64,000 bases of DNA from Bacteroidota bacterium (GTDB lineage Bacteria > Bacteroidota > Bacteroidia > Sphingobacteriales > Sphingobacteriaceae). The stretch lies in contig JAHJVW010000128.1 of the NCBI GenBank assembly GCA_018828585.1, forward strand, positions 27,187-91,186, in the 5' to 3' direction. The notes under the pieces were generated by a model. It did no database searches, was not told where the DNA came from, and saw only the letters and a program-made list of their open reading frames with translations. Shown here piece after piece: positions 17,959 to 50,010 of this stretch (position 1 is its first letter; each line of letters starts with the position of its first letter). The position numbers and the translations under genes were made by a program.

Positions 17959-18111
17959 AGACTCTTGAAAAATGCAGCGCCTTTATTTATTCAGTATTTA
18001 AAAAATTCAGAATATACTCAATATTATATTGAATATTTAAGCGTTATCTCTCAAACTTTATTGAGGGTAAACTCAGCATTACACGGTTAAGTTATTAAAC
18101 AGCATTAAATC

Positions 18112-18534
18112 ATGGATAGGAAAGATTTTTTAACCGCAATTGGAATGGGTGCGGCATCTGTCGCGGTTTTTAATTGTATAGGTTGTGCAAAGGGCTCAAC
18201 AGGCAGTCCTTCAACTCCAGCGCCTACAAATGTAAATTTCACTTTAGATTTAACGACAGCGGCAAACGCTGCATTAACTAATAATGGTGGTTATATTTAT
18301 AATAATGGGGTTATTGTAGCCCGTACCACAACAGGCGCTTATATTGCCGTGTCACAAACTTGCCGACATGAGAGTACCTCTGTTATTTATAGAGCTAATC
18401 AAAATCAGTTTTACTGCCAAAGACATGGTGCTACTTATTCAGAAACTGGTGTTTCTGCAGGTATAATAACTAATCTACCTTTAACTAAATACAACACGCA
18501 ACTTACTGGTACAAATCTTCGTATCTTCTCTTAG
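18112..18534 (+). CDS. Rieske (2Fe-2S) domain lipoprotein
   Basis: Lipobox-like NCIGC; Rieske C-x-H...C-x2-H motifs (CRH...CQRH). Confidence 0.82.
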   Translation: MDRKDFLTAIGMGAASVAVFNCIGCAKGSTGSPSTPAPTNVNFTLDLTTAANAALTNNGGYIYNNGVIVARTTTGAYIAVSQTCRHESTSVIYRANQNQFYCQRHGATYSETGVSAGIITNLPLTKYNTQLTGTNLRIFS

Positions 18535-18552
18535 CATACTAAATTAAAAATC

Positions 18553-18981
18553 ATGAAATTATTGAGTATCTTTTTTTTATCCTTAGTGGTATCAGGAAAC
18601 ATTTGGGTTTTAGATTTTAAACAAGCAGAAACAGAAGCTAAGCAAAGTCATAAATATATCTTGATTAACTTTTCGGGGTCTGATTGGTGCGGCCCATGTA
18701 TTCGTACACACAAAGAAATTTTTGAAAAAGACGCTTTCGAGGATTATGCCAATAAAAATTTGATCTTAGTTAGAGCTGATTTTCCACGATTGAAAAAGAA
18801 TCAACTTTCGGCTGATCAGCTGAAGAAAAACAATGATTTAGCCGTTAAATACAATCCAGATGGAGACTTTCCTTTAACTGTCTTAACAGACGAAAATGGT
18901 AAAGTGATCAAAGAATGGAAAGGATTTCCTGATTGTTCTCCAGAAGAATTTGTAAAGAAAGTGGAAAATGCCATTAACTGA
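18553..18981 (+). CDS. Periplasmic thioredoxin-family protein
   Basis: Signal peptide and SGSDWCGPC active site. Confidence 0.88.
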   Translation: MKLLSIFFLSLVVSGNIWVLDFKQAETEAKQSHKYILINFSGSDWCGPCIRTHKEIFEKDAFEDYANKNLILVRADFPRLKKNQLSADQLKKNNDLAVKYNPDGDFPLTVLTDENGKVIKEWKGFPDCSPEEFVKKVENAIN

Positions 18982-19915
18982 TTCATCCAAACTTCAGGTT
19001 TTTAAGCAAGCAATGAAATTGATGGGTAATCAATTCGAGATTTCTGTGGTTGCTGAAGATGAAGCTTTCGCCGATGAAAAAATAAACGACGCTGTTGCTG
19101 AAATTAAACGAATTGAGCAATTACTCACCACTTTTAGGCATGATAGTCAAACGAATCAAATCAATGAAAACGCAGGAATTAAACCTGTCAAGATAGATTC
19201 AGAAGTTTTTCACTTAATTCAACGCTCTTTACGTATTTCAGAAATTAGTCAAGGAGCATTTGATATTACTTATGGCTCCTTAGATAAACGTTTCTGGAAT
19301 TTCGATAAAGACATGGATAGCTTACCCGATAAAGAATTAGCAAAACAATCCGTAGCGTTAATCAATTACAAAAACGTCATTTTAGATGCTGAGGGTCAGA
19401 CAGTTTTTTTAAAAGAAAAAGGAATGCGAATTGGCTTTGGTGGTATAGGCAAAGGTTACGCAGCCGATCGAGCAAAAAGACTTTTGCAAGAGGCTGGTGT
19501 AGCAAATGGTATTGTAAATGCCTCAGGAGATTTAGTAACTTGGGGATTACAGCCCAATGGTCAACCCTGGACAGTGGGCATTGCAGATCCTGAACATAAA
19601 TTAAAGTCCTTTTCTTATATGAATATCAGTAATATGGCCATTGCCACCTCTGGTAATTACGAGAAGTTTGCAGTAATTAATGGTAAAAAGTATTCCCATA
19701 CGATTGATCCTCATACTGGTTTTCCGGTAGCTGGAATTAAAAGTGTGAGCATTATCTGTCCACAAGCTGAGCTCGCAGATGCATTGGCTACTCCTGTTAC
19801 AGTGATGGGTGTTGAGGTTGGATTAAATTTAATTAATCAATTAAATAATGTTGCATGTATTATTATTGATGATGATAATAAGCTGTATACATCAAAAAAT
19901 ATAAATATTAACTAA
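18968..19915 (+). CDS. apbE: ApbE-family FAD:protein FMN transferase
   Basis: GGIGKGYAADRA, NASGDLVTWG, HTIDPHTGFP motifs; overlaps the thioredoxin gene. Confidence 0.93.
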   Translation: MPLTDSSKLQVFKQAMKLMGNQFEISVVAEDEAFADEKINDAVAEIKRIEQLLTTFRHDSQTNQINENAGIKPVKIDSEVFHLIQRSLRISEISQGAFDITYGSLDKRFWNFDKDMDSLPDKELAKQSVALINYKNVILDAEGQTVFLKEKGMRIGFGGIGKGYAADRAKRLLQEAGVANGIVNASGDLVTWGLQPNGQPWTVGIADPEHKLKSFSYMNISNMAIATSGNYEKFAVINGKKYSHTIDPHTGFPVAGIKSVSIICPQAELADALATPVTVMGVEVGLNLINQLNNVACIIIDDDNKLYTSKNININ

Positions 19916-27077: not shown

Positions 27078-28691
27078 GTGAAAAAACCATCTGTTTATAT
27101 CGTCCTATTTTGCTCTCTTTTGCTATTTTCTTGCGCAAGTTTGCAGCAACCTCAAGGCGGACCAAAAGATATGCTAGCGCCAAAAGTTTTAGAAGAGTCT
27201 CCAAAAAATTTAAGCACCAATTTTAAAGGAGATAAGATTGATATCACTTTTGATGAATATTTTAAACTGTCAAGTGAATTTACTGAGATCAGTATCTCCC
27301 CGTCTTTAGAAATTACACCAGTCTATAAAATAAAGAAAAAAGTTTTAGAAATAGTATTCAAAGATTCTCTTGAAAAAAACACCACTTACACCATAAACTT
27401 TGGAAAGGCAATTCAGGATGTTAATGAGTCTAACGTCTTAAAAAATTACAGTTATGTTTTTGCTACTGGGCCTGTCTTAGATTCGCTACAGATAAGTGGA
27501 ACAATTATTAGCTCTAACGATATTAAGCCTGTTAAAGATGCAACAGCTTTTCTTTTTCATATAGAACAAGATACTTTATTCGGAAAAAAGAAATCATCAC
27601 TTTTTACGACAACAGATAGTGCCGGTCATTTTAGTCTTAAAAATTTAAAAGAGGGAAAGTATACCATTTATGGACTGAAAGAAGCTAATCCTGACAGAAT
27701 TTACAATTCACCAAATGAGGAAATTGCTTTTTTGAGAGATCCTATAAATTTAGTAAAAGATACTTCTGATATTATATTAAAATTATTTAAAGGAATTCCC
27801 GAACGACTTAGAATACTTGATAAAAAGATAGAAAAGGACGGTAGAATAACCTACATTTTTAATAAACCCATTAAAAAACCTTCGATTACTTTTATAGACC
27901 CAATAAATCTGAAAGATCCTATTATTAATTTTTCTAACAAAGGCGACACCGCATCGGTTTGGTTGAGAAGTTATGATTTTGATTCGCTTAAAGTAGCTAT
28001 TAACTCTGACAAGGTAGCCCTAGATACTATTAAACTGACCAGAAGTAAAAAGGATACTTATGAGAGAACCATTTTATTTAGTAATAATTTATCTGGTGGG
28101 AAAATAACACCTGGAAAATCTTTACAACTGACTTTTAATTTACCTATTGAAAATATCAGCAAGCAGTCTGTAGAGTTGCTAGAAGATTCTATTCCAAAAA
28201 CTGGATTTGTCATCAATCAATTAAGTCAATCAAATCTGGTTTATACCGTATCATATCCATGGAAAATAAAAAAACTATACACCCTGAAATTCAATGAAGG
28301 AGCAATTAAAGACATTTACAATACGGCTAACAAGCCACTTAAATTAGATTTTGAATTAGACGAAGTAGAAAATTATGGCAATCTTTCCTTAAATATTGTT
28401 AAAGAAGACAGTACAAAAACCTATATTCTTCAATTGTTTAATTCAGCCAAAAACCTTTATAAAGAAGAAATAATTAAAGAAAATAAAACTATTATTTTTA
28501 ATAATATCCCTATTAGCAAATATACATTGAGAGTTATTGAGGATGCTAATAATAACGGTGAATTTGACACTGGAAATGTGAAGCTAAAAACTCAACCTGA
28601 AAAAGTTTGGTTTTTTGATAAGGAAATTATTACAAGGGCTAACTGGGATAGGGAGGAGAAAATTATTATTCCTAAAAAATTTTCTGATTAA
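27078..28691 (+). CDS. Ig-like (SbsA-type) domain lipoprotein
   Basis: GTG start, lipobox LLFSCA, QQPQGGPKDMLAPKVLEESP typical N-terminus. Confidence 0.75.
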   Translation: MKKPSVYIVLFCSLLLFSCASLQQPQGGPKDMLAPKVLEESPKNLSTNFKGDKIDITFDEYFKLSSEFTEISISPSLEITPVYKIKKKVLEIVFKDSLEKNTTYTINFGKAIQDVNESNVLKNYSYVFATGPVLDSLQISGTIISSNDIKPVKDATAFLFHIEQDTLFGKKKSSLFTTTDSAGHFSLKNLKEGKYTIYGLKEANPDRIYNSPNEEIAFLRDPINLVKDTSDIILKLFKGIPERLRILDKKIEKDGRITYIFNKPIKKPSITFIDPINLKDPIINFSNKGDTASVWLRSYDFDSLKVAINSDKVALDTIKLTRSKKDTYERTILFSNNLSGGKITPGKSLQLTFNLPIENISKQSVELLEDSIPKTGFVINQLSQSNLVYTVSYPWKIKKLYTLKFNEGAIKDIYNTANKPLKLDFELDEVENYGNLSLNIVKEDSTKTYILQLFNSAKNLYKEEIIKENKTIIFNNIPISKYTLRVIEDANNNGEFDTGNVKLKTQPEKVWFFDKEIITRANWDREEKIIIPKKFSD

Positions 28692-28723
28692 TCTTTAGTA
28701 GTATTATTCCTAATACCTAAAGC

Positions 28724-29233
28724 TTATTTAAACCAACCCGAATACATTACATAGTTGTGAGGAAGCTTTTTCAACATTTCCTTTTGTTCCTCTGTTAGCG
28801 GCTTAATTTTCTTCGCTGGGACACCTGCGTATAAATATCCCGATTCACAAATAGTGTTCTCTAGAACAACAGCTCCTGCAGCAATAATGACGAATTCATT
28901 AACCATTGCATGGTCCATTACAATTGCTCCCATACCGATCAAAACGTGGTCTTTCAAAGTGCAACCATGAACCAAAGCATTATGTCCAATAGATACATAA
29001 CTCCCAATAGTGGTTGCCGCTTTTAAATAAGTGGCGTGGATAACTGCACCGTCTTGAATATTTGTAAAGTCTCCAATTTTAATAAAATTTACATCTCCAC
29101 GAATAACTGCGTTAAACCAAACTGAACAATTGTTCCCCATAGAAACATCGCCAATAATCGTACAATTCTCAGCAATGAAACAATCTGTTCCCCATGATGG
29201 ATTTTTATCCTCAACTGGTAAAATAAGTGCCAT
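28724..29233 (-). CDS. Gamma carbonic anhydrase family protein (left-handed beta-helix)
   Basis: Hexapeptide repeats (NCTIIGDVSMGNNCSVWFNAVIRGD, IGHNALVHGC). Confidence 0.93.
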   Translation of the reverse strand: MALILPVEDKNPSWGTDCFIAENCTIIGDVSMGNNCSVWFNAVIRGDVNFIKIGDFTNIQDGAVIHATYLKAATTIGSYVSIGHNALVHGCTLKDHVLIGMGAIVMDHAMVNEFVIIAAGAVVLENTICESGYLYAGVPAKKIKPLTEEQKEMLKKLPHNYVMYSGWFK

Positions 29234-30828
29234 TATAAAATAGTATCTGTTAATGTTTCTTGGTGATTTGGATAATCTGTTGTATAGTGTAAACCCCTAC
29301 TCTCTTTACGTTCCATTGCTGATTTAATGACAATGTAAGAAACTTGAATGAGGTTTCTTAATTCACAAAGTTTTACAGATAATTTTGTCTTCTTATAGAA
29401 ATCTTCAGTTTCCTCATACAAGAGACCTAATCTCCTCATTGCTCTCTCTAATCTGAAATCAGAACGAACGATTCCTACATAATCACTCATCATCTTTTGC
29501 ATTTCGCGAATGTTATGGGTAACTAAAATGTCTTCATTAGAAAGTTGGGTGTTTTTATCGTTCCAGTCTGGTATATTTTCAGGAATATTGAATTCACTTA
29601 ACCTATCTTTTGCATCTAAATATATACGATGCGCAAAAACTAGTGCCTCTAGTAAAGAATTGGAAGCCAATCGATTAGCACCATGCAAACCTGTTGAAGT
29701 TACTTCCCCACAAGCATACAATCTTTTTATGGAAGACTGGCCATTTTCATCAACCATTACGCCACCACACATATAATGACAAGCTGGTGTAACTGGTATC
29801 ATATCTTTGGTCATATCTAACCCAATTGACAAGCATTTAGCATAAATATTAGGAAAATGAATTAACAAATCTTCCTTTTTACGATGTCGAATATCTAGAT
29901 AAACAAAGTCATCTCCAGACTTTTTCATCTCATTATCAATAGCTCTTGCAACAATATCGCGTGGAGCTAAAGATCCACGCTCATCGTATTCATACATAAA
30001 CTCTACACCGTCTTTTCTTTTTAAGACACCACCAAAACCTCTAACCGCTTCGGAAATTAAAAAAGAGGGATATTCTCCAGGATTATACAAAGCAGTTGGG
30101 TGAAACTGGATAAATTCCATATTTCTAATTTTTGCTTTTGCCCGATATGCCATAGCAACACCATCACCTGTGGCAATTGTTGGATTAGTAGTAGAGCTAT
30201 AAATATGACCAGCACCTCCGGCTGCTAATAATGTAACCTTAGATAGAAATTTATCAATTTTACCTGTTTTAGTATCTAAGGCGTAAGCTCCGTAACATTC
30301 AATATCATTAGAATGGCGATTTACAAAATCGCCTAAATGGTGTTGCGTAATTAAATCAACCACAAAATAGTGTGACAACAATTCTATATTAGTATTCTCA
30401 TGTATTTCAGCCAATAAGGATCTTTCTATCTCAAAACCCGTTATATCTTTATAATGAAGTACCCGATGTTCTGAATGTCCACCTTCTTTAGCTAAATCAT
30501 AAACTCCACCTTTGGTTTTATCAAAGTTTGCACCATACTCAATAATCTCATTAATACGGGCAGGACCTTCCCTTACAACAACTTCAACAACCAATTTATC
30601 ACAAAGACCGTCTCCTGCTATTAAAGTATCTTGTATATGCTTGTCAAACGAATCATCCTTTTTATCCACAACAACTGCTACTCCACCTTGAGCATACTTA
30701 GTGTTAGATTCATCCTCATTAGATTTTGTAACTATCAGAACCTTACCATATTGTGCAGCCTTAATGGCAAAACTAAGACCAGCTATTCCAGATCCTATTA
30801 CTAAGAAATCAACATTTTTTATTTTCAT
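29233..30828 (-). CDS. nadB: L-aspartate oxidase
   Basis: FLVIGSGIAGLSFA, NTKYAQGGVAVV, GGHSEHRVLH, LHGANRLASNSLLEALVF. Confidence 0.96.
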   Translation of the reverse strand: MKIKNVDFLVIGSGIAGLSFAIKAAQYGKVLIVTKSNEDESNTKYAQGGVAVVVDKKDDSFDKHIQDTLIAGDGLCDKLVVEVVVREGPARINEIIEYGANFDKTKGGVYDLAKEGGHSEHRVLHYKDITGFEIERSLLAEIHENTNIELLSHYFVVDLITQHHLGDFVNRHSNDIECYGAYALDTKTGKIDKFLSKVTLLAAGGAGHIYSSTTNPTIATGDGVAMAYRAKAKIRNMEFIQFHPTALYNPGEYPSFLISEAVRGFGGVLKRKDGVEFMYEYDERGSLAPRDIVARAIDNEMKKSGDDFVYLDIRHRKKEDLLIHFPNIYAKCLSIGLDMTKDMIPVTPACHYMCGGVMVDENGQSSIKRLYACGEVTSTGLHGANRLASNSLLEALVFAHRIYLDAKDRLSEFNIPENIPDWNDKNTQLSNEDILVTHNIREMQKMMSDYVGIVRSDFRLERAMRRLGLLYEETEDFYKKTKLSVKLCELRNLIQVSYIVIKSAMERKESRGLHYTTDYPNHQETLTDTIL

Positions 30829-48632: not shown

Positions 48633-48657
48633 ATTTGGGATTATTTTACAAGCTTAA

Positions 48658-48690
48658 AACACCGACAGGGTTCTAAACCCCATCGGTGTT
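48658..48690. terminator. Palindrome/bidirectional terminator between convergent genes
   Basis: AACACCGACAGGGTTCTAAACCCCATCGGTGTT. Confidence 0.65.
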
Positions 48691-48707
48691 TATAATAGAT
48701 ACTAATT

Positions 48708-48881
48708 CTAAATATCTTTAAAAGTAGTTCCTGCAGCTAAAACTAGAAATCCAACTAACAAAAGTTGAAAACTGTATTCAGTTAAAAATTGAACGTTAGT
48801 AAAATGACCTATTATACCGGCAAAGCCTGTAACTAAGCCAATAATCCAAGTAATTTGTTTTGGAGACGATGGTGCTTTCAT
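48708..48881 (-). CDS. Small two-TM membrane protein
   Basis: MKAPSSPKQITWIIGLVTGFAGIIGHFTNVQFLTEYSFQLLLVGFLVLAAGTTFKDI. Confidence 0.55.
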   Translation of the reverse strand: MKAPSSPKQITWIIGLVTGFAGIIGHFTNVQFLTEYSFQLLLVGFLVLAAGTTFKDI

Positions 48882-49015
48882 AATTTTAATTTCTGATTCG
48901 AAAACAATAAACGAACCGAGATCATTAAACACTATTTAAAGCTACGCGGAAGCCTATTGTTGATGAGGTTAAGATTGGATACAAATTTAACTGACCCATA
49001 AAAAGAACAGATTTT

Positions 49016-49147
49016 TAACGGTTGGCTAATTTGTACTGAAATGGCATTCCTAGCAAAACCATTTTCAGCCTGCACTAAATTAAGTAAATAACTGATGAAT
49101 TAAAGTAAACCACCGTCAGCCATTTTTGTACAAATTTGCTGTTAGGG
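49016..49147 (-). repeat. attC-like imperfect palindrome downstream of the 49148-49816 gene
   Basis: 49119-49139 and 49025-49045 are inverted repeats matching at 18/21; ends read TAAC...GTTA on the minus strand. Confidence 0.5.
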
Positions 49148-49155
49148 CTAGTTCT
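49141..49155. repeat. Left boundary inverted repeat GTTAGGGCTAGTTCT
   Basis: Pairs with 49820-49834 with one mismatch. Confidence 0.8.
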
Positions 49156-49816
49156 TCTTTATTTCGGGATAATGGTTTTCAAAGTCCAATAAAAACTCAA
49201 CTAAATCACCTTGGTCAAAAAATGAAGTTGTATCTTCTTTATGTTCCATAATCAGATATAAACCATTCATTGAGGCTTTTATTTCAAAGTTTTCCCATTT
49301 AGCTATCTTTAAGAGTTCACCTTCTTTATTTAAAACTTTTTTATGGAAATGAAATTTTCCATTATGAGCAGAAGCATTTCTTACATGCCTAAAAAATTCG
49401 AAAACATCTCCTGACAAATTAAGGTCAGCTATTTTCTCAAAAGCTTTTAATATAGTCATATGTGTCAGTTCAATATTTGCTGAAGTTCTCCCACCAGTAT
49501 CATTAACAAATTCTACAGCCGATTGATATGGATCAAATTCATAAGCTATTGTTTTGTCTTTCTTCAAAAAGCCTGGCACAAATATCAAAGGAGTAAAATT
49601 TCTTGCCTTAAATATTTCGTTATTGATTGAAGAATTAAAACCAAAGGAAAAGATATATTTTTGAAAACCTTCAAAATCATTTTTATGAGTTACCCAAGCT
49701 TTGGTCATAAAACCTCTAGAAAACATTTCATTTATGCCAAACTGAGCGTAGACTAAAGTTGTAATTGAACTATAGAAAAAGTTGTTTTTGTCAATGTTAT
49801 GTATGAAGTTCGTCAT
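49148..49816 (-). CDS. Hypothetical protein with HEPN-like R-x4-H motif (pEK499_p136-like)
   Basis: FEFFRHVRNASAHNGKFHF motif; 222 aa. Confidence 0.6.
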   Translation of the reverse strand: MTNFIHNIDKNNFFYSSITTLVYAQFGINEMFSRGFMTKAWVTHKNDFEGFQKYIFSFGFNSSINNEIFKARNFTPLIFVPGFLKKDKTIAYEFDPYQSAVEFVNDTGGRTSANIELTHMTILKAFEKIADLNLSGDVFEFFRHVRNASAHNGKFHFHKKVLNKEGELLKIAKWENFEIKASMNGLYLIMEHKEDTTSFFDQGDLVEFLLDFENHYPEIKKN

Positions 49817-49819
49817 TTT

Positions 49820-49834
49820 AGAATTAGCCCTAAC
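49820..49834. repeat. Right boundary inverted repeat AGAATTAGCCCTAAC
   Basis: Pairs with 49141-49155; lies 3 nt upstream of the ORF start codon. Confidence 0.8.
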
Positions 49835-50010
49835 TTAAATATACGTATCATAAACATTCCATCATATAGCCGAATTCTGTTATGTTACGGAGTGTTTTAA
49901 TAAGTAGTAAACTAAATTAACTTTTTTCCAACAGAAAACATTTTAAACCCTGAACACATTTAAAAATCCATTTCTCAAACTTGACATTAAAAACATAAAA
50001 GTTTAATTAC

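Follow-up and report, generated by a model that had tools for sequence, protein, structure and literature searches.

A probable lone gene cassette in a Sphingobacteriaceae chromosome and a putative integron-like gene-capture system in Bacteroidia

In classical integrons (IntI, attI and attC), extrahelical bases mark the strand polarity of attC, and the sites of chromosomal superintegrons measure about 125 bp. Their integrase, IntI, is defined by an additional domain that is also essential (PMC9668308, PMC8138268), and group II introns associated with attC occur in these elements (PMC7923331). Integrons were previously thought to be nearly absent from Bacteroidetes: beyond Chlorobi and Ignavibacteriae, IntegronFinder 2.0 reported one complete Bacteroidetes integron, in Salinibacter ruber (PMC9024848). 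The present analysis deals with a 64-kb stretch of DNA from a Sphingobacteriaceae genome (hereafter the window), which carries a single cassette-like unit.

Read on the minus strand, this unit is made of a start arm, an ORF and a 125-bp attC-like site (Table 1), in the order ...GTATATTTAAG↓TTAGGGCTAATTCT AAA ATG ... AAC TAG CCCTAAC (site) CCG↓TTAAAAATC, and no second cassette is found in the window. Its limits are crossovers inferred at minus-strand G↓TT (49833/49834 and 49018/49019; the arrow marks the crossover), giving 49019-49833. The first-pass annotation, made from the letters of the window alone, had described 15-nt inverted repeats with one mismatch, an ATG 3 nt past the first repeat, a stop codon at the second and a palindrome downstream. 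These observations are confirmed: the repeats match at 14 of 15 positions (14/14 complementary outside the mismatch, with an arm pairing of 10/11), the ATG is in place, the TAG stop of the ORF lies inside the downstream repeat, and the palindrome arms (49025-49045 and 49119-49139) are 18/21 complementary. The same annotation had recognized in this layout the logic of a cassette, in which the core at the start pairs with the inverse core of an attC-type site located downstream, and had guessed at a lone or diverged Bacteroidota recombination cassette; this interpretation is supported by the arrays, covarying sites, associated integrase and cassette-free syntenic locus presented below. An Rfam search of the window gave no match. 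A 16-bp hairpin (AAACACCGACAGGGTT/AACCCCATCGGTGTTT) lies beside the cassette, at 48657-48691 of the window, and a similar but diverged one is present in a sister genome.

Table 1. Features of the cassette-like unit and its left junction (positions in the window).
Feature	Coordinates	Strand	Basis or remark
Whole cassette, 815 bp	49019..49833	minus	Bounded by inferred G↓TT crossovers; conserved block of relatives, CTAAC to GTTA
Cassette start arm GTTAGGGCTAATTCT, R' side of the circular cassette	49820..49834	minus	15-nt rule common to other cassettes
Cargo ORF, 222 aa, conserved R-x4-H (RNASAH)	49148..49816	minus	HEPN-like by motif only; no family match
Extended R'' arm AGAACTAGCCCTAAC, includes the ORF stop	49141..49155	minus	Inverted-repeat comparison
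Covarying attC stem, 5' half	49119..49138	minus	Alignment A2, columns 8-27; compensatory change in 16/18 pairs
Covarying attC stem, 3' half	49026..49045	minus	Alignment A2, columns 120-140
attC-like site, match to model R1	49019..49144	minus	108 bits, E 3.5e-22
attI-like left junction GTATATTTAAG↓TTA, putative secondary insertion site	49831..49844	minus	Sole ATATATNNAAGTTA match in 64 kb; attI cores; other lone cassettes

A DNA search with the window site revealed copies in most genomes of the genus, at roughly 72-89% identity, sharing a conserved block that starts with CTAAC and stops with GTTA. The window site is not a chance match, since its score with a model built from related sites (Table 1; the site is itself one of the 29 training sequences) compares with only 17 bits for the next-best match in the window. 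Many copies are in tandem on the same strand, with a spacing that ranges from a few hundred bp to roughly 2,100 bp, such as the 11 sites of a 12.9-kb contig (L022) and 11 more on another (L023). The genome that includes the window has four attC-like sites at the far end of contig C73 and three on contig C125. Both in relatives and in this genome (L214, L215), the arrays consist of single genes in the same orientation, each cassette ending in an attC. The longest ORF is on the attC strand in 59 of 66 cassettes, and median lengths are 915 bp for the cassettes and 209 aa for the ORFs. The alignment of 29 diverse sites defines a stem of 18 pairs, 16 of which show compensatory changes. Pairing is kept in 92.7% of the stem cells (62.1% in shuffles), and the covariation score is 0.745, compared to 0.183 ± 0.019 in shuffled alignments and to 0.116 or less after shifting the partner by 1-3 columns. 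Energy folding of the 140-nt site as single-stranded DNA gave a stability no better than that of shuffles (z of -0.25 and -0.36); folding of the isolated site is uninformative, and the support for its structure is therefore comparative. The sites depart from the canonical core (RYYYAAC ... GTTRRRY), of which they retain only (T/C)AAC and GTT(A/G), and the core of the window site, CCCTAAC, does not fit RYYYAAC.

The start of each of the 66 cassettes was compared with the reverse complement of its own R'' flank, all pairs being taken from sequence-model sites and not selected for complementarity. The fraction of matches is at least 0.88 at nt 1-9, 0.59 at nt 10, 0.00 at nt 11, 0.86-0.91 at nt 12-15 and at most 0.23 beyond, and the profile was the same for 35 further cassettes, nearly all from other Bacteroidia families. 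The start pairs with its own R'' over 9 + 4 nt, with a mismatch or a 1-nt bulge at nt 10-11; nt 11 of the start is an A opposed by a mismatch (AA/AG, AA/TG, CA/CG or CA/TCG). The outer arm is kept in 92 of the 93 cassettes that have a paired inner arm (1-nt bulge allowed; four pairs with unpaired inner arms were left out), and both arm criteria are met by 8.6% of re-dealt start/R'' pairs. These repeats vary in sequence between cassettes and match only within one cassette. The single mismatch initially noticed in the window thus turned out to be a general rule, the mismatch at position 11 being present in every cassette tested.

The cargoes of the cassettes include matches (Pfam, PADLOC) to YhcG/DUF1016, PDC-S02, Gp49-like, HSDR_N, PLDc and Cass2; therefore, defence-like genes occur among them, although this concerns occurrence only and no enrichment figure is available. 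The cargo of the window had been called a HEPN-like gene. Its R-x4-H motif is conserved in a 55% homologue from another Sphingobacteriaceae genus (R, N, A, A and H of RNASAH invariant in these two sequences only, in agreement with R-x4-6-H), but no family match in Pfam, PADLOC or NCBIfam supports this assignment, and a search of PHROGs gave one weak match of unknown function. This homologue and one marginal match are all that was found in 396 Bacteroidia genomes; no attC was found in the 3.65-kb locus of the homologue, and no homologue was detected in GTDB genome contigs, viral contigs or plasmids. The single-sequence AlphaFold2 model (mean pLDDT of 35) is unusable as evidence on a helical HEPN fold. 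The cargo is probably, on weak support, a putative defence- or toxin-type HEPN-like protein, any RNase activity being a prediction from the motif alone.

A de novo scan, in which loci were picked by their integrase alone and reversed controls gave zero matches, located the first cassette downstream of the stop codon of the integrase, at 84-101 bp in six loci and at 41 bp in a seventh. The leaders, in which the end follows a variable inverted repeat, terminate with ...CATATATATAAG↓TTA, CCTATAAACTAG↓TTG or similar sequences, and an attI-like core (...TATATAAG↓TT) is found ahead of the first cassette. As far as can be judged from sequence alone, an attI adjoins the integrase gene. The left junction of the window cassette resembles the attI core of the integron carried by its own genome, and attI-like left junctions were also found elsewhere in the genus, at two more lone or first cassettes. 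Since 1.3 matches to ATATATNNAAGTTA with at most one mismatch are expected by chance in the window, the informative point is not that there is a single one but that it falls on the boundary. None of the 59 other genomes in the relatives set has the cargo gene. Furthermore, the sister genome G005 keeps both flanks (94.7% and 88.4% identity) without the cassette, with an interval of 178 bp where the genome of the window has about 1.3 kb. An empty site in related strains, looked for as a check of the cassette reading, is supported by these flanks, but the exact empty joint cannot be read because the intergenic DNA has diverged. As this interval also lacks the small neighbouring ORF (48708-48932), the precise insertion of a single cassette is not proven.

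Tyrosine recombinases of about 350 aa are encoded directly upstream of the arrays of the genus and read towards the cassettes. The statement that no integrase is present holds for the window but not for the genome: the genome-wide search for intI-like tyrosine recombinases found an intact one on contig C73 (215-1255), 70% identical to the array integrase of genome G013 with an attI-like leader behind it and then the opening nucleotides of a cassette, cut short by the contig end. Two more tyrosine recombinases of the same broad clade are encoded by this genome (contigs C64 and C93 of G000; L055, L056), without detected arrays. The tested array integrases score 191-204 bits with the integron integrase profile TIGR02249, below its cut-off of 265, and 202-218 bits with the XerA profile NF040815 (cut-off 220), whose name, "site-specific tyrosine recombinase/integron integrase", is the NCBI label of some of these proteins. 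The distance from KGxKDR to LRH is 60-61 residues in array integrases (24/24), 102 in IntI (16/16) and 62-70 in Xer; by this inter-motif length, all 24 array integrases lack the IntI additional domain. Among solved structures, the best Foldseek match of the predicted structure (pLDDT 80) is the integron integrase IntI4, which aligns in two pieces flanking the absent stretch. In a quick maximum-likelihood tree, IntI forms one clade (SH-aLRT 100) and array integrases with their relatives another (92), both split from Xer (99). Membership of the array integrase in the Xer clade was considered and is not borne out by this tree (SH-aLRT 99 for the separation). However, a sister position to IntI is provisional, because the tree is midpoint-rooted and has no bootstrap. 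Array integrases share with XerA and other Xer proteins similar catalytic and core-binding domains, the absence of the IntI insert and a best profile score just under the cut-off; they differ by their separate clade, an extra N-terminal domain, an SPLD-type tail and their association with cassette arrays. The N-terminal domain gave only sub-threshold Pfam matches, including HARP (E 0.15). In some proteins (L104:9149-10825, L112), it seems to occur in as many as three copies and has a W...W motif that is faintly HARP-like at the same E-value.

Overall, the window unit is very probably a single integron-type gene cassette, put in the chromosome by an integron-like system of Bacteroidia. This conclusion rests on what can be read in the DNA, i.e., one-gene units, covarying imperfect palindromes and same-strand arrays behind a tyrosine recombinase reading towards them. 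The integrase would recognize one folded strand of the site, excise the cassette as a circle through recombination between successive sites and insert it at G↓TT, either in attI or, in rare cases, in chromosomal sites that resemble attI; the cassette of the window would be one of these rare cases. Strand polarity may be marked by the interruption in the R arm, a role that extrahelical bases play in classical sites. Catalysis of recombination by the integrase, the circle and the strand preference are all inferred, without direct observation. Several points weigh against this explanation: classical integrases depend on an insert that the array integrase does not have (PMC8138268; PMC9668308), the isolated site folds no better than shuffles, and the integrase and the window cassette are on separate contigs.

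In several arrays, also in the genome of the window, group II introns are located at the attC core. This makes them similar to IIC-attC introns; their hosts here are sites of a new attC type, and the array introns have no subclass assignment. Introns with reverse transcriptases were observed in L028 (4280-6150 and 8067-10560), L102, L215 of the window genome (2609-4475) and L151 (22722-24464), and the common 5' end of array introns, GTGCGCCTTGAATGG, abuts the attC core. An ssb gene is found within 1.2 kb of 7 of the 95 integrases of the clade, in some cases directly downstream, and was confirmed by Pfam in two (loci L055:680-1015, L104:10859-11206, L044, L183, L108, L195 and L112). It remains possible, though rather unlikely, that this is a real cassette system acting on double-stranded sites as Xer and phage integrases do, the palindrome binding a recombinase dimer without any single-strand folding. 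The absence of the IntI insert, which is tied to single-strand chemistry, the long R arms, the palindromes carried by the attI-like leaders themselves and the profile scores near XerA would all suit such sites. However, the whole stem covaries, even far from the crossover, all cassettes have a single site polarity with the interruption always on the same side, the sites are used by the attC-seeking kind of group II introns, and ssb adjoins some integrases.

Among 248 Bacteroidia genomes, 56 encode this integrase (E <= 1e-80) and 180 carry attC-like sites (E <= 1e-4; these E-values are rough and at most 14 candidates were scored per genome). Arrays of about 15-17 sites adjoin the integrases of genomes G417 and G373, and the integrase is also encoded on two Chryseobacterium plasmids, where it is followed by sites, six of them on one plasmid. 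A putative integron-like gene-capture system is thus widespread in Bacteroidia. On a Chryseobacterium oryzae plasmid (L149), a portion of the DNA that follows the array integrase lies between two copies (17969-19911 and 27830-29772) of an IS91-family transposase accompanied by a tyrosine recombinase. Canonical IntI is common elsewhere in the phylum: 88 of the 300 sampled genomes encode it, almost none of them Bacteroidia. One could imagine that a classical integron brought the cassette from elsewhere, the Bacteroidia integrase being unrelated. This seems very improbable: canonical IntI passes the cut-off in only one of the 248 Bacteroidia genomes, which is not that of the window, no site matching the model was found in the canonical IntI loci examined, and arrays with this type of site are located behind the insert-less integrase. 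In a specificity check on IntI-bearing genomes of other classes, 10 of 15 had no site match and 5 had one. Even less plausible is a transposon-like one-gene unit, suggested by the 15-bp inverted ends of 49141-49834, since these repeats are cassette-specific, the conserved part is the site outside them, and head-to-tail arrays contradict it. Finally, although AT-rich intergenic DNA yields some chance inverted repeats, an ordinary chromosomal gene followed by a fortuitous palindrome or a terminator can practically be discarded, as the site is multi-copy and the gene is missing both from the relatives and between the conserved flanks of the sister genome.

The Bacteroidia system has many traits in common with classical integrons. 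Its cassettes carry one gene each, are bounded by G↓TT and stand in arrays on one strand; the cassette start is complementary to R'', and the sites are imperfect palindromes that covary. An attI-like site lies next to the integrase, lone cassettes occupy secondary sites, group II introns are found in attC, and some versions are plasmid-borne. The system differs from classical integrons by an integrase devoid of the additional domain, by a 15-nt R arm interrupted at nt 10-11 instead of a 7-nt RYYYAAC/GTTRRRY core, and by an integrase gene that is oriented towards the cassettes and followed, past its stop codon, by the attI-like site. Scans of canonical IntI loci for classical arrays, intended for a comparison of R-arm lengths, gave no chained cassettes with the patterns used; therefore, classical attC is compared here on the basis of what is generally known of these sites and of a brief look at a single class 1 cassette. 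As a lone attC unit without nearby integrase, the window cassette is similar to CALIN/SALIN elements, but its attC is of another type and the matching integrase is located elsewhere in the genome. The system appears integron-like by its anatomy; however, it is outside the current definition because its integrase fails the domain test. We slightly favour the broader proposal that Bacteroidia harbour a second large lineage of integrons, a sister group of IntI without the additional domain, in which the interrupted 15-nt R arm gives the strand polarity; present in most genomes of the class and on plasmids, it would have escaped detection because the tools rely on the IntI domain and on canonical attC. 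A full-text search of open-access papers turned up no description of insert-less integrases or of such Bacteroidia arrays; as it did not cover preprints or subscription papers, these may have been described before.

If this system is active, a large reservoir of gene capture, plasmids included, would have been overlooked in a major bacterial class, and the capture of cassettes would be possible without a domain held to be essential for IntI. It would also provide a natural test of strand choice and of the evolution of integron integrases from Xer-like enzymes (discussed in PMC4792948).
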